This document shows positions 4,342-58,352 of a DNA stretch of 64,000 nucleotides, in pieces. The notes under the pieces were generated by a model. The model had not been told where the DNA came from. It made no database searches and saw only the letters and a list, made by a program, of their open reading frames with translations. This DNA comes from Nitrospira sp. CR1.3 (GTDB taxonomy: Bacteria > Nitrospirota > Nitrospiria > Nitrospirales > Nitrospiraceae). Numbering within the stretch: the first letter of the stretch is position 1; each line of letters begins with the position of its first letter. The stretch covers positions 1 through 64,000 of the forward strand of contig WIAH01000001.1 in the NCBI GenBank assembly GCA_014055525.1, in the 5' to 3' direction. A program made the translations under genes and the position numbers.

Positions 4342-5196
4342 ATGGCCGTGGGAAATACTCCTTATAATCAGCAACAACGCTCGCTTGCCGAACTGATTCT
4401 TGCCGTCGCCGGCGAATCGGTTACAGTCATGAAGAAGAACGCCCCCGAGCAGGCATTGAAACTCAAGCGCCAGGACGAATGGGGACTGTACCTCGAGTTT
4501 CTCAAAGTCATGTTCAATCTGACAGACAGGCTTTCGGCCTTCCACATTCCGATCAAGGACCAGCCGGAATTCATGAACGGGCTGGAAGATGCCGTGACCA
4601 CGCAACTCAAGACGGTGCTGGAGCCCGCCTTCGGCTCGGGCGTGGATCAGTCGGAAATCATGGTGACGATAGGAGGAGCCGTGGCGGAGAGTCGTGAACT
4701 GTATGAGCGCTATCGGTTTTCAATCACCGAAGACAGCAAGGCCAAGAATGACATGTTTGACGCCTTCGGCGGGCGCGTGGCCGAAGCGCTCGGAATGAGC
4801 GGCCATCCGCAGATCACATCAGCCGCGACAATCTGCGCCACCGCTGTCGTTCCAGCCATTGCCGCGATCCTCCAAGGGGAGGCGCCGCCGGCCACAGCCG
4901 GCATCTCGGCACAACCGGTGTCGGGGGTCGCAGGCTCGGCTGTCGCGGCGTCTACTGCGTCGAAAGGCCAGACCGGGAACGAAATCAAATTGATCAGTGT
5001 GATGTCCACCGTGACCGGTGAAGAAGTGGAAACACGCTGGGGACTCCATCCCCGCTTCCGCCAGGATCTCACTCGGGACGAAGCGCAGCAACTCACGAAG
5101 TTGATGAATCGAGTTGCGAAAATTCTTGGCGAACGCTACGCATCCGTGGCATTCTCGGACGAGTGGACCTCCTGGCATAAGGCCGGCCACGCCTGA
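4342..5196 (+). CDS. Conserved-type hypothetical protein (unknown function)
   Basis: A 284-residue protein starting MAVGNTPYNQQQ. The start is fixed by the promoter at 4279-4308 and by AGGAT just ahead of the ATG. The N-terminal two thirds is mostly helical in character, with no signal peptide. An Ala/Pro/Gly-rich linker lies near residues 180-215, and the C-terminal part has a short domain ending in a helix around NRVAKILGERY. I do not recognise the family. It precedes glgP by 67 bases on the same strand, so it may be co-transcribed with glycogen metabolism, but nothing in the sequence shows a functional link. Confidence 0.75.
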   Translation: MAVGNTPYNQQQRSLAELILAVAGESVTVMKKNAPEQALKLKRQDEWGLYLEFLKVMFNLTDRLSAFHIPIKDQPEFMNGLEDAVTTQLKTVLEPAFGSGVDQSEIMVTIGGAVAESRELYERYRFSITEDSKAKNDMFDAFGGRVAEALGMSGHPQITSAATICATAVVPAIAAILQGEAPPATAGISAQPVSGVAGSAVAASTASKGQTGNEIKLISVMSTVTGEEVETRWGLHPRFRQDLTRDEAQQLTKLMNRVAKILGERYASVAFSDEWTSWHKAGHA

Positions 5197-5263
5197 TTCG
5201 CCCGTCGCGGGATGCCGGCCATCCTCTCACAATCGCCTCGGTCCCCAATCACAAGGAGACGCA

Positions 5264-7423
5264 GTGGAGACTACGAATGTCGCTCAGGATTCACGAATCA
5301 CATTGCCGCTGAGTCTGGCCCGCCTCGCGGAGTTGTCCAAGAATCTTTGGTGGAGCTGGACGTTGGAAGCCCGTCAACTGTTCGAAACCATCGACCCCAC
5401 CCTTTGGTTTCTGACGCATCACAACCCCGTCAAGCTGCTCGCCGACGTGAAACCGGAACGGCTGGCGCGGCTGGCGGAAGATCCATCGTACCTCCGGCAG
5501 TACTCGGCCGTGATCAAACTGTTCGATGAGTATCGGGCGAATGGACACAGCTGGTTCAGCACCCAGCATGCGGCGTCCGCCAAAGAAACCATCGCCTATT
5601 TTTCGGCTGAATTCGGCCTCCACACGTCGATTCCCATTTATAGCGGCGGCCTGGGAATTCTGGCAGGAGACCACTGCAAGGAAGCCAGTGACCTCGGCGT
5701 TCCCCTGGTGGGGATCGGATTTATGTACCCGCAGGGATACTTCCGCCAGCGCATTACGCCAGAAGGCTGGCAGGAAGCCGCGTATGCGCCGTTCAATCGC
5801 GAGGACTCTCCGATTCATCCGGCGCTCACGCCTTCGGGAGAGCCCTGCCGGATCACCGTGGAGATGGGCGGGCGGGTCGTCGCCGCGGTTGTCTGGAAGG
5901 TGCTGGTCGGGCGTGTGCCGCTCTACCTCATCGATACAGATGTCCCGGAAAATACCCCGGAGAATCGCGCACTCTCCGCCCGATTGTACGGAGGCGATCA
6001 GGAAATGCGGCTCTGCCAGGAAATCTTGCTTGGCATCGGAGGCGTTCGGGTCCTTCGCACTCTTGGCATCGCGCCATCCGTTTGGCACGCCAATGAGGGG
6101 CATTCCGCCTTTCTGACTCTGGAACGGCTGCGCGAGTTGGCTCAAAAAGGCACTTCTCATGCCGAAGCGAGTGAGTTCGTCCGCCAGAGCACCGTCTTCA
6201 CGACCCATACTCCCGTCCCGGCCGGACATGACGTGTTTCCCCATTACCTAATGGACCGCTACTTTGCAGGATTTTGGGATCAGATCGGGCTCACCCGCGA
6301 TGAATTTCTTCGATTGGGAGACACACCGGAGTCTCACAGCCAAGGCTTCAACATGACCGCTCTCGTAATGAGATTGTCGGCACACATCAACGGCGTCAGC
6401 CGCGAGCACGGACGGGTGAGCCGCCAGATGTGGCAACACTTTTGGCCTGGTCTTCCCGTCGACCAGGTGCCGATTCGGAGCGTCACAAACGGCGTCCATG
6501 CGCCGACGTGGATCGCTCCGGATCTTCATCGGTTGTACAGCAGGTCACTCAGTCCAAACTGGGCAGAGACCTGCGACGACCCTGCAATGTGGCAGCGGGT
6601 CGCCGATATTCCTGACCATGAACTGTGGGCTGTTCGCCAAGCGGTCAAGCGAAAACTGATGGGGTTCATCAGAGAGCGGGCCCGCAACGGCTGGGTGCAA
6701 GGCCACCTTCAACCGTCACAAGTGCTCGCCCGTGGCACGCTGTTGGATCCCGAGGCTCTGACCATCGGATTTGCGCGACGGTTCGCGACATACAAACGGG
6801 CTACGTTGCTATTCAGCGATCTTGAGCGCTTGAAACGCCTTCTTCAAGACCGGTGGCGTCCTGTTCAATTGATCTTTGCAGGAAAAGCCCATCCGGCGGA
6901 TGAGCCGGGCCGCTATTTCATTCATGAGGTCTTAAACTTCTGTCAGGATCACAAACTTGGCGGCCACGTGGCCTTCCTGGAAGACTACGAAATGCACATG
7001 GCGAAGTACCTCGTGCAGGGCGTCGACATCTGGCTCAATACGCCCCGTTTTCCGATGGAGGCCAGCGGCACGAGCGGGATGAAGGCTGCGCTCAACGGCG
7101 CGCTGCACTTCAGCGTGCTCGACGGCTGGTGGCAAGAGGGATACAACGGCGCCAACGGCTGGGGTATCCAACCCTTAACCGACAATTCGGACGCCCAGGT
7201 CCAGGATCGTCATGACGCCGAACAGCTGTACCGATTATTGGAACAGGAAGCCGTGCCGCTCTACTATCAGCGTGATCTCGACGGCATCCCGCGCGGCTGG
7301 CTGCAACTGGTCAAAGAAAGCATCAGAACCGTCGCACCCGCTTTCTGCACCAAGCGAATGGTCAAGGATTACGTGGAGATGCTGTATACGCCGGCGATGG
7401 TCCGCACTCCGACGAAATGGTAG
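5264..7423 (+). CDS. glgP: Alpha-glucan (maltodextrin/glycogen) phosphorylase
   Basis: A 719-residue GT35-family enzyme that releases glucose-1-phosphate from alpha-1,4-glucans with pyridoxal phosphate. It belongs to the shorter bacterial type with an N-terminal domain beginning LPLSLARLAELSKNLWWSW. The PLP-lysine motif GTSGMKAALNG is near residue 603 (Lys about 607), and YFSAEFGLH and SVTNGVH blocks are also visible. The start is a GTG at 5264 with AAGGAG five bases upstream; the longer open frame from 5114 would overlap the previous gene. The enzyme probably works with MalQ (22227-24476), which supplies longer glucan chains. Confidence 0.95.
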   Translation: METTNVAQDSRITLPLSLARLAELSKNLWWSWTLEARQLFETIDPTLWFLTHHNPVKLLADVKPERLARLAEDPSYLRQYSAVIKLFDEYRANGHSWFSTQHAASAKETIAYFSAEFGLHTSIPIYSGGLGILAGDHCKEASDLGVPLVGIGFMYPQGYFRQRITPEGWQEAAYAPFNREDSPIHPALTPSGEPCRITVEMGGRVVAAVVWKVLVGRVPLYLIDTDVPENTPENRALSARLYGGDQEMRLCQEILLGIGGVRVLRTLGIAPSVWHANEGHSAFLTLERLRELAQKGTSHAEASEFVRQSTVFTTHTPVPAGHDVFPHYLMDRYFAGFWDQIGLTRDEFLRLGDTPESHSQGFNMTALVMRLSAHINGVSREHGRVSRQMWQHFWPGLPVDQVPIRSVTNGVHAPTWIAPDLHRLYSRSLSPNWAETCDDPAMWQRVADIPDHELWAVRQAVKRKLMGFIRERARNGWVQGHLQPSQVLARGTLLDPEALTIGFARRFATYKRATLLFSDLERLKRLLQDRWRPVQLIFAGKAHPADEPGRYFIHEVLNFCQDHKLGGHVAFLEDYEMHMAKYLVQGVDIWLNTPRFPMEASGTSGMKAALNGALHFSVLDGWWQEGYNGANGWGIQPLTDNSDAQVQDRHDAEQLYRLLEQEAVPLYYQRDLDGIPRGWLQLVKESIRTVAPAFCTKRMVKDYVEMLYTPAMVRTPTKW

Positions 7424-50950: not shown

Positions 50951-51191
50951 GAAGGGCATCACAGAAACGGTCATCGACCCATGGACGTGACCGCTCCGAC
51001 GAAGGAATATTCTCACACCTGCCGGGAGGCGTCACGTTTTTTACACTTCTGCGCGTCGAAATAACAGCGTCGTTTTCCGAAAGCGTCAAGGAGGAGCGTC
51101 TGGAAAACCTGTCCGCGGTGTCAATCTCGCCGCGCTCTGGTTAGAATAGGGAGTGACCGGATCGGTTGGTCGCAACGATGGAGGAACCGTC

Positions 51192-52295
51192 ATGATCATC
51201 GGAGTCCCCAAGGAAATCAAAGATCATGAATATCGCGTCAGCATTACACCCGAAGGCGTGCGGGCTTTGCGTCTGGCGGGTCACGAGATCTGGGTCGAGG
51301 CGTCCGCCGGAGCGGGCAGCGGGCACTCCGACGCAGAATATCGTCACGCCGGGGCCTCGATCGCGCAGTCAAAGTCAGAGGTCTTCGAGCGCGCCACCCT
51401 TATCGTCAAGGTGAAAGAGCCGCTGCTGTCCGAATGCAGCTACTTTCGATCCGGCCAGACGCTCTTTACCTATCTCCATTTGGCTTCATTGCCGGAATTG
51501 ACCAAGAAACTGCTCGAAAGCAGAGTCACGGCGATCGCCTACGAGACGGTCGAAGCCAAGGACGGAACGATTCCAATGCTCAAGCCGATGAGCGACATCG
51601 CCGGCCGGATGTCCGTTCAGATCGGCGCGCGGTACCTGGAGAAGACACAGGGCGGCCGCGGTGTTCTGCTCTCAGGAGTGCCGGGCGTGGAGCCTGCCAA
51701 GGTCGTCGTGCTCGGGGCAGGCATCGTCGGCAGCGCGGCAGTTAGAATCGCCGTCGGCATGGGAGCACAGGTGACGGTCGTCAATCTCGACCTTGAGCGA
51801 CTCCGGCTCTTGGACGATCAGTACCAGGGCAGAATCGTCACTCGTGCTTCCACTCAAGCCGCCATCGAGGAATCGGTCCTTGCCGCCGACCTTGTGATCG
51901 GGGCGGTCCTTGTTCCTGGGGCGCGCGCGCCGAAGCTCGTCTCGCGAGGGTTGGTGGCTCGCATGAACCCCGGATCCGTGATTGTGGATGTCGCCGTCGA
52001 CCAAGGAGGTTGCATCGAAACCACCAGGCCCACCAGTCACTCGGACCCGGTCTATGTCGTAGACGGTGTGCTGCACTATTGCGTCGCGAACATGCCGGGG
52101 ATTGTGCCGCGCACATCAACCGCCGCGCTCACGAACGCTACGCTGCCCTACCTGCTCAGGCTGGCCGCAGAAGGGGTCGATGCGACAATACGAGCCGATG
52201 CGGGATTCGCCAAGGGTGTGAACCTCTTTAATGGAAAAGTCACTTGTCGGGCGGTGGCTGAAGCCCATGGCTTGCGTTTCGACCCCGTGATGTAA
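51192..52295 (+). CDS. ald: Alanine dehydrogenase
   Basis: A 367-residue NAD-dependent enzyme interconverting L-alanine and pyruvate plus ammonia. It begins [20 protein letters not shown], with Arg15, Lys75 (KVKEP) and His96 (YLHLA) at the positions expected for pyruvate binding and catalysis, and the NAD loop [14 protein letters not shown]. The ATG at 51192 follows GGAGGA; an upstream ATG at 51153 is not supported. The gene can also serve ammonium assimilation. Confidence 0.97.
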
Positions 52296-52333
52296 GACAA
52301 TCGCGCTTCGTTTCACACGGCCGCACAACAGGT

Positions 52334-52412
<79 letters not shown>

Positions 52413-52579
52413 CCGCACTTCGTGTGGGCCGCGCGCTCATTTTCGGTTTTGGGAAGGATGCGCGCGGATAGACGCCTCCAGTGCGGAAGCGTTTCTATGT
52501 CGTGGATAGCTCGTGCCGCCGAGCATCCGGGTCTCATAGGCACTCACGCCGGCAAGACTCACCCTGGAGATCGCCCATC

Positions 52580-52960
52580 ATGAATGCAGCCGACTCCTGC
52601 AATGCGTGCCATGCCACCGGCGTCGCATTAATGAAACTCTCCCTCGGCAAAGATTTCTTCGGCAGAACTTACGATCGCCTGTCTCCGTCGAGCGATCAAA
52701 GCCCGATGTGGTATTGCGAAGGTTGTTCGATGCAGAAAAACCTTCAGCGCGACTTTCGCGACATCCGCGCTGAGCATGACAAGCTCGCGGCCGGTCAACA
52801 GTCGGAACTCTCAAACCCGGAAGCGTTTCAGCGCGCCACGTTGCGGCTGCGGGAAATCGTCGCCATTCTCGGCGGATCATCGGGCCAATCCACCTTACTG
52901 AGCGCCGCCGACGTGAAGCAACTGATCGACCGGTTTCAAACCACCACCATGCAAGCCTGA
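52580..52960 (+). CDS. Small protein with two CxxC motifs, first gene of the Fe-S cluster
   Basis: A 126-residue protein with NACHATGVALM (as CNACH) at residues 7-11 and WYCEGC about 40 residues later, followed by a helical C-terminus with a disordered Gln/Ser stretch. CNACH has the CxxCH form of a haem site, but no signal peptide is present, so a zinc or iron site formed by the two CxxC pairs is more likely. It starts a run of four tightly spaced plus-strand genes (to 54073), two of which are ferredoxins. I do not recognise the family. Confidence 0.7.
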   Translation: MNAADSCNACHATGVALMKLSLGKDFFGRTYDRLSPSSDQSPMWYCEGCSMQKNLQRDFRDIRAEHDKLAAGQQSELSNPEAFQRATLRLREIVAILGGSSGQSTLLSAADVKQLIDRFQTTTMQA

Positions 52961-52977
52961 CAAGTCGGGATTGAGCC

Positions 52978-53328
52978 TTGCCTGCATTCAAACGACATAT
53001 CTTCGTCTGCACGAATCAACGAAGCCCTGAGGACCCGCGCGGCAGTTGCTCGAATCGCGGCTCGGAATCGTTGCACGCCCGCTTCAAGCAGGAAGCCAAA
53101 CGCCTCAATCTCAAGAACATCGTTCGCGCGAACAAGGCCGGCTGCCTCGACCATTGCGAACTGGGACCCAGCGTGGTGATCTATCCCGAAGGCGTGTGGT
53201 ACAGCGTGAAATCGGAAGGCGATGTGACCGAGATTATGGAGCGCCACATCCTAAAGGGAGAAGTCGTCACTCGTTTGCTCATGCCTGACCACCCGGTTCC
53301 GGTGAAACTCCCTCCCCTGATCTCCTAG
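52978..53328 (+). CDS. Thioredoxin-like [2Fe-2S] ferredoxin
   Basis: A 116-residue ferredoxin with the thioredoxin fold. Four Cys lie in the usual spacing: C-x12-C in FVCTNQRSPEDPRGSC and C-x3-C in AGCLDHCELGPSVV. VIYPEGVWYSVK and a C-terminal helix complete the domain, as in NuoE-like and Cyanobacterial/Aquifex-type ferredoxins. The start is a TTG at 52978, which follows the stop of the preceding gene by 17 bases. It is probably an electron carrier for a partner in this cluster. Confidence 0.85.
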   Translation: MPAFKRHIFVCTNQRSPEDPRGSCSNRGSESLHARFKQEAKRLNLKNIVRANKAGCLDHCELGPSVVIYPEGVWYSVKSEGDVTEIMERHILKGEVVTRLLMPDHPVPVKLPPLIS

Positions 53329-53348
53329 CGCAACCAGAGGATACTCCC

Positions 53349-53762
53349 ATGGCCGTCGAAGAAAAATGGAAGGCCAACTTGGAAAAAGTGGCTTTCATGA
53401 AACAATTTCCCGGCCTGCTGGGGAACTGGGAGGCGCTGCAGGGCAAGACCATCGAAGCGGTGATCGCGCTGAGAGGCAAGCAGGGCGCCGCAGCGATTAT
53501 TTTCAACGATGGAACCTTCACCATCGCGCCGCCCATGATGACGGAGCCTTACGAAATTACCGAAACCCTCACGGTTGCAAGAACCCACTTGGAGCGGACG
53601 CATCAAACCGCTTATGCGGAGTACGATCGTCTCGTCAAACGGGATCAAGAGGCGCTCAAGTCGGCACGGATTGAAAAGATCGTCGGCGCGATCCGGAACA
53701 ATTTGGAGCAGATTCCGGAGTTGAAAGAGCGGCTGAAAGCGCTCGTCAAGGAGTGGAAGTGA
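53349..53762 (+). CDS. Hypothetical protein in the ferredoxin cluster
   Basis: A 137-residue soluble protein starting MAVEEKWKANLEKVAFMKQF. The first half has a small beta domain (GKTIEAVIALRGKQGAAAIIF, DGTFTIAPPM), and the second half is a long helical stretch. No Cys or catalytic motif is visible and I do not recognise it. AGAGGA precedes the ATG. The following ferredoxin gene begins inside its last codons (GTGA overlap), so the two are coupled. Confidence 0.75.
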   Translation: MAVEEKWKANLEKVAFMKQFPGLLGNWEALQGKTIEAVIALRGKQGAAAIIFNDGTFTIAPPMMTEPYEITETLTVARTHLERTHQTAYAEYDRLVKRDQEALKSARIEKIVGAIRNNLEQIPELKERLKALVKEWK

Positions 53763-54073
53763 GCAGCCTCCCCGACAAGAACATGTTCGAGATCTTCTCG
53801 CAAGGCCTCTTTGAAGGAGTGAAGCCTATGATGGTCATTCGCGATCACCTCGTCCGTCACCCGGACCGGTGCATGCACAACGGCATCTGCATTCCGATCT
53901 GCCCGACCGGCGCCTGGCTTTCGACGCCGCCCTACAAGTTCGACCCCTCCCGCTGCCTCGAAAGCTGCCGGCTCTGTTTGGATGCCTGTCCCTCTCAGGC
54001 CATTTACGCGGTATTCAAGAAGGGGGATAAGATGCTGGAGCCGCAAAAAAAGTCGGAAGAGAATCGCCGCTGA
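53759..54073 (+). CDS. Ferredoxin-like protein with an altered first Fe-S motif
   Basis: A 104-residue protein. The second cluster motif is CLESCRLCLDACPSQAI (four Cys). The first reads DRCMHNGICIPICPTGAW; compared with the usual C-x2-C-x2-C-x3-CP pattern the second Cys is Asn, leaving three. This would suit a [3Fe-4S] cluster or a cluster with another ligand. The GTG at 53759 overlaps the previous stop and has AAGGAG five bases upstream. It ends in a charged tail. Confidence 0.85.
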   Translation: MSSLPDKNMFEIFSQGLFEGVKPMMVIRDHLVRHPDRCMHNGICIPICPTGAWLSTPPYKFDPSRCLESCRLCLDACPSQAIYAVFKKGDKMLEPQKKSEENRR

Positions 54074-54122
54074 CGAACGGCGCGCGGCCTCGGTTGTGCC
54101 ATCATGCGTTGATTCTCTTTAT

Positions 54123-55169
54123 TTAGATGATCTGTTTCCGCAGTCTTCCCCAATAAGCCGTCCCCACATAGCCGCAGGCGAAGGTCCCTGCTGTCAGCGC
54201 CATGATTTGATACACCTTGCTGCGAGGGATTTTCACTTTAACGGCAGGATTCAACAGATCAGGCGAAGTCAGCGCCAGCTTGAGAGATTCCCCGGCTGAG
54301 AGAATCGGCCACATACAGGAAAGGCGCAGTCGGGTTTCAGTCCGCGGAATCGCCATGGTGTAGAGCCAGCCTTGGTCAAGGTGCTCCACCGCTATGCGAA
54401 CCAGACGGCTCATGATCGGCTGCAAGCGCGGTAGGTGGCTCTGATCCAGCAACTCACGCGCGGTGAGGCCGGCCTCCGACAGGAGAGATTCCGGGATGTA
54501 GCAACGGCCCCTCTGCAGATCGTGCGCAACGTCTTTGACGATGTTCGTCAATTGCAAGCCTTTCCCGAATCGCACGCCCACTTCCGACATCCCTCTCACA
54601 TTCCACGAACGAAGCGCCCGGCGATGGGCGCACATCAGGTCCGTCCAGAATTCGCCCACACAGCCCGCCACGTAGTAGGTGTAGCGATCCAGATCGTCAA
54701 GAGTCTTGAGCGCGGCAAGATCTCTCGTTGACTCGCCGGGAAAGACGGTCAAATCCATCTCCATCCCTTGCGTGAGCGTCGTCATGAGACGCTGCACCCG
54801 CCTGCGATCGTCCGGTGCGAAGGACTGGAAGAGTCGGAAACAGTCCTCCAGCCGCTCAAGCAACATGCGCTCGGCAGAGTCCCGCTGAAGCGGTCCAATC
54901 GCCTGTTGAATGTCCCGGACCTGCGCCCAGGCGATGTGATCGCTGATGAATTGGGCTTTGAGCTGAGAAAGATAATCCAGCCGCCGCGGCCGGTCGATCA
55001 GTTCGGTGTCGGCGATCGTGTCGGCAGCGCGGGCGAAAAGGTAGGCCAGACTGACCTGGTCCCGGACATCAGCCGGGACCACAACCAGGGTCGTGTAGAA
55101 GAGACGCGAGACTCGCTTGAGGAGATCTCGGAGCAATTCCTGCGGGAGGACATCGGTGCCCGTGATCAC
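54123..55169 (-). CDS. Squalene/phytoene synthase family protein
   Basis: A protein of about 348 residues joining two prenyl diphosphates in hopanoid or carotenoid synthesis. It shows the first Asp-rich helix ARAADTIADT, DLDRYTYYVAGCVGEFW, and the second Asp helix NIVKDVAHDLQRGRCYIP. A hydrophobic C-terminal segment, IMALTAGTFACGYVGTAYW, may anchor it in the membrane. The start is a GTG at 55169, two bases after the cupredoxin stop; earlier starts would overlap that gene. I cannot tell squalene from phytoene synthesis by sequence alone. Confidence 0.9.
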   Translation of the reverse strand: MITGTDVLPQELLRDLLKRVSRLFYTTLVVVPADVRDQVSLAYLFARAADTIADTELIDRPRRLDYLSQLKAQFISDHIAWAQVRDIQQAIGPLQRDSAERMLLERLEDCFRLFQSFAPDDRRRVQRLMTTLTQGMEMDLTVFPGESTRDLAALKTLDDLDRYTYYVAGCVGEFWTDLMCAHRRALRSWNVRGMSEVGVRFGKGLQLTNIVKDVAHDLQRGRCYIPESLLSEAGLTARELLDQSHLPRLQPIMSRLVRIAVEHLDQGWLYTMAIPRTETRLRLSCMWPILSAGESLKLALTSPDLLNPAVKVKIPRSKVYQIMALTAGTFACGYVGTAYWGRLRKQII

Positions 55170-55171
55170 AC

Positions 55172-55597
55172 CTACTTTACTTCCAGCTTGCCTTCCATCC
55201 CCTTGTCCCGATGGCTCGGCATCGGCCAGAGACGCTTGTCGCAATAGATGGGGAAAACTCCCGGCTTGGTCGGCGTGAATTTCACCACGACGGTCTTGCC
55301 GGCGCCGACGTCCTGTTCGACGGACAAACTTCCGGCAGGATCCTTGATGATGAAATTGTGAGGGGTTATCGTCGTTACGCTCGTCAGGGTGAGCTCAACC
55401 GGCTTTCCCGCTTCAACAACCAGGTAGCCCGGAACATAGGAGTAACTATCCAGCGTGATCGTGGCCCGTTGCACCCCGTCTGCGGCAACGGGAACCGGAA
55501 AAGGCGCGACCGACTGCGGCATATCGGCCGCATAAGTAAACGTCCGAGCGGCCATGGCCAACACAACACTCGCGATCAAGGGCAAGAGGGACCGCAT
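55172..55597 (-). CDS. Exported cupredoxin-domain protein
   Basis: A 141-residue protein with a signal peptide (SLLPLIASVVLAMAARTFTYA) and a blue-copper-type beta domain. Candidate copper ligands are His in TITPHNFII, Cys in PIYCDKR, and Met in KGMEGKLEV near the end; a His or other fourth ligand in SHRDKGM is plausible. GGAGG precedes the ATG at 55597. It is probably a periplasmic electron carrier or copper-binding protein, co-transcribed with the squalene/phytoene synthase gene. Confidence 0.83.
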   Translation of the reverse strand: MRSLLPLIASVVLAMAARTFTYAADMPQSVAPFPVPVAADGVQRATITLDSYSYVPGYLVVEAGKPVELTLTSVTTITPHNFIIKDPAGSLSVEQDVGAGKTVVVKFTPTKPGVFPIYCDKRLWPMPSHRDKGMEGKLEVK

Positions 55598-57341: not shown

Positions 57342-57626
57342 CTAACTGTTTCTGAAAAAGCTGATGTGCCGCCGGTATTCCTGAATCGCGGCGCCTAATG
57401 CAGCGGCGCCGAGCGGAATGTTGGCCTCGAGCGTGTCTTCGATGGCGGGATCGTCGATAACCACGTCATAAAGATCCTGCAGATTTGTCCGTACTGGTCC
57501 CTGCGCCACCTCTCGCGGCATAAATATCTCTTTCCAGACTTCTTTTTCGACCAGACACACGTCCCGGAAACGCTCGTACAGCAACGTGAGCTTCTCCGGA
57601 TCGGTTATCATGACGCGGTTCCCCAT
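57342..57626 (-). CDS. Small hypothetical protein
   Basis: A 94-residue protein, mostly helical, with VMITDPEKLTLLYERFRDV at the start and LGAAALGAAIQEYRRHISFF at the end. CLVEKEVWKEIFMPREV is in the middle. No domain is recognised. Another ATG at 57611 could be the start. It ends five bases past the glutathione peroxidase stop, on the opposite strand. Confidence 0.7.
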   Translation of the reverse strand: MGNRVMITDPEKLTLLYERFRDVCLVEKEVWKEIFMPREVAQGPVRTNLQDLYDVVIDDPAIEDTLEANIPLGAAALGAAIQEYRRHISFFRNS

Positions 57627-57704
57627 GTGCGATTCTTGCTCCTGATTGTTTTTGGGATGACAGTCGCGCGAGGCAGTGCGCCGGCCTATCGAAAATCTCC
57701 AAAT

Positions 57705-58352
57705 CTATTTCGGCGCACCTGACTGGCCGGCGGGAGTCGGCTCCACAATGGTAAACCGCATGGTGCCGACTTGATTGACCGCATGAAACGGCTGCTGACC
57801 GAGCGGGGTGATGAACAGCTTGGCCAGGTACGTACCGGTTGCCCATTTGTCGCCAGGCTTCTTCAACTCCAAGAATCCGTAGCGTTCATGCCCCGGCACT
57901 TCCAACGTATCCTTCCCCAGCGGTGAAGCGGGAATCGTTCCATCCTGTCCCTCTAAAAACCACTGCGTGCTGAACTGGGCCGGATCCTCCAGCGGGGCGA
58001 CTTCGAACACGATGTAGATCGCCGGCGTATCGGGCGTGAAGACAGTGCCCGGATCAATCGGCTTCAGACGAGGATCCTGCGTGTACCATCCCTTCCTGCC
58101 GAAACTATCCCACTCGACGTCATACCCTTTCGCCATCTTGATCCACACGAAAATCGACTGCGGGACGCCCTTTCGCTGGTTGTCGAAAGACGGCAGCTGC
58201 GTCGGATCGATTTCGGTTGTAGACTGTTCTTTCGGAGCGACAAGATCTCTGGCGAGAGCCTGGTGCCACCCTCCTCCGATGCTCACGCCGAGCAGTAGGC
58301 CGGCGAAGACCCGCTGCCGCATGCGTCGGTAATCGGTCAATCGAACTATCAT
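57705..58352 (-). CDS. Exported protein of unknown function
   Basis: A 215-residue protein with a basic N-terminus and hydrophobic stretch (VFAGLLLGVSIGGGWHQALA) typical of a signal peptide. The mature part is beta-rich with many aromatic residues (DVEWDSFGRKGWYTQDPRL, YIVFEVAPLEDPAQF) and ends in GTMRFTIVEPTPAGQS. I do not recognise the family. A start at 58322 is possible. It precedes the small gene 57342-57626 on the same strand. Confidence 0.72.
   Translation of the reverse strand: MIVRLTDYRRMRQRVFAGLLLGVSIGGGWHQALARDLVAPKEQSTTEIDPTQLPSFDNQRKGVPQSIFVWIKMAKGYDVEWDSFGRKGWYTQDPRLKPIDPGTVFTPDTPAIYIVFEVAPLEDPAQFSTQWFLEGQDGTIPASPLGKDTLEVPGHERYGFLELKKPGDKWATGTYLAKLFITPLGQQPFHAVNQVGTMRFTIVEPTPAGQSGAPK

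Follow-up and report, generated by a model that had tools for sequence, protein, structure and literature searches.

The stretch of the Nitrospira sp. CR1.3 genome analyzed here (the window, 64,000 nucleotides) carries a block of four genes, A-B-C-D, in which two ferredoxins of different type stand beside two proteins that, judged by their sequences, fit no known family. The block is conserved as a cluster in 62 of 68 relatives' loci. The best overall explanation, which we put forward tentatively, is that the four genes are transcribed as a unit and encode a cytoplasmic redox module built of two ferredoxins and accessory proteins. The carrier and operon part of this explanation is highly probable. 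The client of the module is more doubtful: it could be a cytoplasmic step that makes, or supplies electrons to, large iron-sulfur or molybdenum enzymes of the nitrite-oxidizing lineage, a guess drawn from a parallel with the nif region of Azotobacter, in which the ferredoxin FeSI directly follows the [4Fe-4S] ferredoxin Avin_01510 (PMC8561814). In soils, waters and treatment plants, Nitrospira oxidize nitrite and perform complete nitrification; their low-potential electron flow and the building of their large metal enzymes are only partly understood. The block is conserved in nitrite-oxidizing Nitrospira and close relatives, and it makes a good study target. A ferredoxin pair conserved in nearly every genome searched of the window's own family (f1) and of family f3, together with two orphan partners, makes a short test list of four genes.

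All four open reading frames lie on the forward strand between positions 52,580 and 54,073, and all four reading frames are present. Gene A (52,580-52,960) encodes a CxxC...CxxC protein of 126 residues with no family above cut-off, B (52,978-53,328, TTG start) a thioredoxin-like [2Fe-2S] ferredoxin of 116 residues, C (53,349-53,762) a protein of 137 residues, and D (53,759-54,073) a two-site ferredoxin of 104 residues. The genes are separated by 17 nt (A-B) and 20 nt (B-C), and C and D overlap by 4 nt; the best start of D is the GTG at 53,759, which overlaps the C stop codon in a GTGA and has AAGGAG ahead of it. To the left lie alanine dehydrogenase (ald) and a tRNA-Pro (cgg; 52,334-52,410, forward strand, predicted by ARAGORN), the latter outside the module. 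The right boundary is a convergent squalene/phytoene synthase family gene (54,123-55,244, reverse strand; Pfam SQS_PSY, 8e-50). Among nine flanking window proteins scanned there was no isc, suf, nfu or mrp gene and no P450. Within 52,200-54,300, by consensus matching only, we found no sigma-70-type promoter and eight terminator-like sites, compared with 2.7 expected, including overlapping sites after the tRNA (52,421-52,440, forward) and after the hpn gene (54,064-54,082, reverse). In the proposed mechanism, A-B-C-D would be cotranscribed as one unit.

The segment with ald and tRNA-Pro (51,153-52,410 in the window) is inverted with respect to relatives. The ald gene has the opposite orientation in all 60 loci of named genomes that hold both ald and A, as does tRNA-Pro in the eight loci scanned for it; in two congeneric genomes, G001 and G006, ald points the way it does in the window. 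The inversion alters the sequence upstream of A.

Conservation was assessed in 68 loci from genome contigs of named genomes and in 29 further loci from other relatives. Order and strand of A-B-C-D were kept in 62/68; four loci had B-C-D without A, and two were cut by a contig end. Among the 29 further loci, 28 held all four genes and one ended after C. The preliminary description of a four-gene cluster packed with small gaps or overlaps is thus borne out, and the neighbourhood conservation within Nitrospirota for which it called was found, with D limited to Nitrospirales. Gaps of more than 300 nt were rare inside the block (A-B 0/63, B-C 1/67, C-D 0/67) compared with its edges (ald-A 10/60, D-hpn 19/53), and insertions of more than 1 kb were seen at the edges (7/60 and 14/53) and never inside (0/63, 0/67, 0/67). 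Some other gene pairs of the region are equally tight (gaps of more than 300 nt in 0/46 loci for rpoS-acyP and in 0/43 for hpn-cupr), so that the tightness of the block is ordinary operon behaviour. Against three relatives, dN/dS was 0.05-0.17 in ten of 12 comparisons, with dS saturated in the other two. D is under the strictest purifying selection (0.05-0.06), and its median identity of 88% is the highest of 15 genes compared. The low dN/dS, the kept order and strand, and the tight internal gaps against loose edges indicate that the block is conserved beyond chance.

Protein B is, by sequence, a thioredoxin-like [2Fe-2S] ferredoxin, as had been proposed, and is of the kind of Aquifex Fd1 and Azotobacter FeSI. 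A profile search (profile A2) matched the PDB entries of Aquifex aeolicus Fd1 (1f37, E 7e-26) and of FeSI, or Shethna protein I (5abr, 9e-19), and the alignment to these solved members covers nearly the whole length of B. The four putative ligands C11, C24, C56 and C60 are all present in 66/66 loci, and their numbers are identical to those of the FeSI ligands, Cys11, 24, 56 and 60 (PMC8561814). No Pfam cut-off was passed (2Fe-2S_thioredx, 12.4 bits against 24.8), and B also scored below the NCBIfam cut-offs for the Azotobacter model fdxn_Azotob (85.6 against 195 bits) and for fdxn_Clost (84.6 against 150). In four genomes (G039, G042, G045 and G303), in-frame stops that seemed to interrupt B proved, in the reading frames examined, to be ordinary gene ends. 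Given the likeness of B to a Shethna protein, we also considered a role in Shethna-type conformational protection of oxygen-sensitive enzymes. We rejected it because the protective protein is FeSII, of adrenodoxin type, and B resembles FeSI (PMC8561814).

FeSI is predicted to be cotranscribed with the [4Fe-4S] ferredoxin and with proteins of unknown function (PMC8561814). The block resembles that operon in combining genes for a cubane-type and a thioredoxin-like [2Fe-2S] ferredoxin and for small unknown proteins in one unit. Unlike there, the order of the two ferredoxins is reversed and C lies between them; the comparison is one of arrangement only. No nitrogenase genes were noticed by eye in the loci read.

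Protein D is, by sequence, a two-site ferredoxin, and only three Cys ligands are left in site I. Site I reads C38xxNxxC44xxxC48P, with the second Cys replaced, and site II C66xxxC70xxC73xxxC77P. The seven Cys are without exception (64 to 67 residues read per column), and the replaced position holds Gln in 49, Asn in 17, Lys in one and Cys in none of the 67 loci, in agreement with the earlier view of D as a modified bacterial-type ferredoxin. A His stands one residue before this position in 66/67 and could be a candidate ligand too. D matches Fer4_7 and other Pfam families. It does not show the classic 2[4Fe-4S] pair of CxxCxxCxxxCP motifs: site I lacks the second Cys in all 67 loci, and site II follows CxxxCxxCxxxCP. 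From this pattern, site I is predicted to be other than an ordinary [4Fe-4S] site. We propose that it would carry either a [3Fe-4S] cluster or a [4Fe-4S] cluster whose fourth ligand is labile or not a Cys, at a relatively high potential, and that site II would carry a low-potential [4Fe-4S] cluster. The predicted [3Fe-4S] site that follows from the replaced ligand can be checked by EPR.

Several known ferredoxins share one or another of these features. Like the 7Fe ferredoxins FdxA and Azotobacter FdI, D has a three-Cys site beside a full site, and its second PDB match is FdI (1ff2). However, D is far under the cut-offs of all NCBIfam families listed; the best of them, FdxA_Protbact, gave 28 bits against a cut-off of 135. 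The Cys spacing of FdI differs from that of D, whose site II has CxxxC. Ferredoxins of the CXX?XXC(X)nCP type, from Mycobacterium and with CXXD in Pyrococcus, have the second Cys replaced as in D (Asn or Gln in 66/67). In contrast to D with its second complete site, they are mostly single-cluster proteins encoded beside P450 genes (PMC6237146). The Mycobacterium members examined, with Asn, His, Ser and other residues, Gln not among them, hold [3Fe-4S] clusters, and their His and Asn variants had more positive potentials (PMC6237146). Aquifex Fd6 and Fd7 are, like D, small soluble ferredoxins of an autotroph with the reverse TCA (rTCA) cycle, but they have a single [4Fe-4S] cluster with the motif CX2CX2CXnCP (PMC10052474); D differs from them both in its motif and in its number of sites.

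The proposed CxxC nature of A was confirmed. The Cys C7xxC10...C46xxC49 are invariant, each in 60/60 residues read, and are followed by a three-helix C-terminal part. The pairs are predicted to form a zinc-ribbon-like or iron-binding knuckle, and the Cys may hold zinc. The window protein has no Pfam match, and Zn_ribbon_8 matched weakly in 4/23 relatives (best E 0.008). The AlphaFold2 model of A is fair (pLDDT 83) and found no PDB match with Foldseek at E <= 0.001; the best VIA-align hit (4hwh_A, Z 7.1, rmsd 2.9, 77 aligned) was within the range of common arrangements and was set aside. Protein C has no conserved Cys across the 68 loci. Its confident model (pLDDT 90) shows an N-terminal helix, a three-stranded sheet and long C-terminal helices. 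It likewise has no PDB match with Foldseek at E <= 0.001, and the best VIA-align hit (5vkh_C, Z 6.7, rmsd 3.6, 89 aligned) was set aside on the same ground. The only Pfam match of C is to the Med26/TFIIS N-terminal domain, over the last 38 residues (25.6 bits, cut-off 20.6), and Med26 matched 10/32 relatives at E 0.1 or better. Both C and D are present in one copy in the 3.46 Mb genome. The label of a four-gene iron-sulfur cluster therefore holds for B and D, which are clearly iron-sulfur proteins, and fails for C, without conserved Cys, and possibly for A, whose Cys may hold zinc. In the proposed module, C would act as a small adaptor, with A as an accessory protein that binds a metal, and B and D would be co-produced for one client, with electrons passed to that client or between the two.

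We searched for the genes in 395 Nitrospirota genomes per search and counted the family tallies from the listed matches. D (E <= 1e-20) was found in 137 genomes, all in the order Nitrospirales (137/143): 109/110 in f1, 27/27 in f3, 1/3 in f2, 0/3 in f4, and 0/252 elsewhere in the phylum. A further search gave 5/8 for f2 and 0/4 for f4. C (E <= 0.001) occurred in 155 genomes (107 of f1, 25 of f3, one of f4, 15 of other orders of the class and seven of f22), and A (E <= 1e-8) in 129 (107 of f1, one of f2, 20 of f22 and one of f14), with 0/27 in f3. B-like genes (E <= 1e-15) were found in 200 genomes, often two per genome, and thus not all are orthologues. In plasmids, the sole search beyond the phylum, there was no match for A, C or D. 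B and D are kept with C gone in four genomes, two with A (G011, G037) and two without (G047, G276), and C occurs without D in all 22 C-positive genomes outside the order, as well as in f4. A small redox system, as originally suggested, remains a fair inference; the four genes are not one fixed unit, with C lost in places and A absent from f3. In one locus (L139, G159) a stretch of undetermined sequence in the assembly interrupts the block, and only the D end is left; G015, a genome from that family, showed neither A nor C nor D.

Outside the order, A, B and C stand at separate places in the loci read, except for some B-C pairs, in the order B-C (L118, L121, L155) or C-B (L113). Their contexts there, read by eye, are mostly not iron-sulfur genes. 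Two settings away from the block are of the iron-sulfur kind: in f4 both known C genes (L135, L136) close a gene run that comprises Nfu, Mrp and DUF971, and in L152 (G201) B directly follows a lipoyl-synthase-like gene. The run stands without C in two of the four f4 genomes. C does not adjoin DUF971 in the DUF971 loci of 25 genomes outside f4 (about 3.3 kb or less each), and the window's own genome has no DUF971 match. In L135 (1622-5211) and L136, Rrf2 and ferredoxin genes precede the run, an iron-sulfur assembly setting; for L135 the genes were named by Pfam. A histone-deacetylase-family gene lies beside B in 5/5 loci of f9 and near A in all ten loci read of f22 (20 genomes). These deacetylase-neighbour loci are L118, L121, L143, L145-L147, L154-L156 and L159-L164, and Pfam was used to check the family name in L121 and L143. 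The shared deacetylase neighbours are weak evidence for an older shared neighbourhood. In the f4 loci L149 and L150 a deacetylase-family gene lies about 4 kb from B, and in L143 a 154-residue protein without Pfam match (4968-5429) stands between the deacetylase gene and A.

In Nitrospira, the 2M complex I is the proposed reductant of ferredoxin for the rTCA cycle (PMC6606698; PMC12342949). Scoring it by tandem NuoM, we found it in at least 19 of 26 genomes among the matches listed. Ten of the 19 lack D, comprising all four f4 genomes and six of other orders. Among the matches listed, G069 and G077 showed no tandem NuoM, and five genomes (G040, G043, G207, G226 and G272) were ambiguous. Since ten genomes have tandem NuoM and no D, D does not track the 2M complex I, and the idea of D as its obligatory partner is weakened. 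We also considered a place for D within the POR/OGOR clusters; the sole D of the genome is not at its two POR-type loci. A test for an NXR-like beta subunit in 18 genomes gave strong matches in three genomes each of f1, f2 and f3; in the four f4 genomes and the remaining five of f2, matches were weak or absent. All the matches were below the family cut-off. All nine genomes with a strong match have D, and f4 has neither a strong match nor D. From these NXR-like matches only, we infer that f4 corresponds to UBA2166 and f2 to NS-4. At the family level D follows the NXR-bearing clade; genome by genome this fails within f2, in incomplete assemblies, where G037 and G049 have D without a strong match (none and 7.7e-10) and D is missing from G040 and G043, whose NXR-like pieces are weak or broken. 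The match of D to NXR is not independent evidence, since the pattern would also follow if D had been gained once in one clade.

For a dedicated module we count the persistence of B and D after the loss of C, the iron-sulfur settings of C in f4 and of B in G201, and the presence of D in all nine genomes with strong NXR-like matches; beyond the order, the settings of A, B and C are mostly of other kinds, which counts against it. The four could instead be unrelated small genes on a shared promoter, each protein acting alone and the order kept by inertia, as across the ald to mfs region. The flanking genes are indeed likewise syntenic across the family, and A, B and C are found apart elsewhere, with C sometimes lost. 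However, large insertions fall at the edges of the block and not inside it, and the four-base C-D overlap, together with the adjacency of B and C in other families, argues for some selection. We consider this explanation improbable. Nor do we think it likely that the block is an iron-sulfur assembly or repair module serving many enzymes, with B and D giving electrons or clusters and A and C as carriers or adaptors. The same two settings speak for it (C is last in the run in both f4 genomes that have C), as does the occurrence of B and C in f4, where NXR-like matches are only weak; but the run without C in the other two f4 genomes, the DUF971 loci with no adjoining C in the 25 genomes outside f4, the missing DUF971 match in the window's genome and the want of conserved metal-binding Cys in C all point the other way.

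D, with B, might also be a general low-potential carrier from the 2M complex I to the pyruvate and 2-oxoglutarate:ferredoxin oxidoreductases (POR/OGOR) of the rTCA cycle. These enzymes of Nitrospira need reduced ferredoxin, for which the 2M complex I is the proposed source (PMC6606698; PMC12342949), and D is near-universal in f1 and f3. Against this stand the ten of 19 tandem-NuoM genomes, among the matches listed, without D, and the place of the sole D away from the POR-type loci. Moreover, UBA2166, probably our f4 and so without D, has the rTCA cycle and no NXR according to PMC12342949, and in N. moscoviensis another ferredoxin has been proposed, from a cluster that is highly expressed and also holds nuoF and the gene of an iron-sulfur insertion protein (PMC6606698). 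The single-cluster CX2CX2CXnCP form of the rTCA ferredoxins of Aquificota (PMC10052474) and the more positive potentials that accompanied Asn at the fourth ligand place (PMC6237146) also fit poorly with it, and we consider it unlikely. The site I prediction and the Azotobacter FeSI arrangement lead us to prefer a dedicated module, with a role in redox or maturation, to a ferredoxin of general rTCA use. In a bolder form of the dedicated module, for which we see only a slim chance, D would be a two-site ferredoxin of a new kind whose origin coincided with that of the nitrite-oxidizing Nitrospirales, and together with A, B and C it would make or power a part of the nitrite oxidoreductase system. 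If true, nitrite oxidation would have a dedicated redox module in a role comparable to that of the accessory ferredoxins of nitrogenase.

Among the papers listed for Nitrospira and ferredoxins, supplementary gene lists apart, there is no report of the block and no pathway with all four proteins, in keeping with the first impression of an unrecognised system. A, B, C or D may already stand unnamed in the NXR-linked gene lists of the PMC12342949 supplements. Elsewhere in the window (57,342-58,352), two small proteins of 94 and 215 residues without Pfam match lie beside a glutathione-peroxidase-family gene, and they are present in 43/68 and 40/68 of the relatives' loci, respectively.
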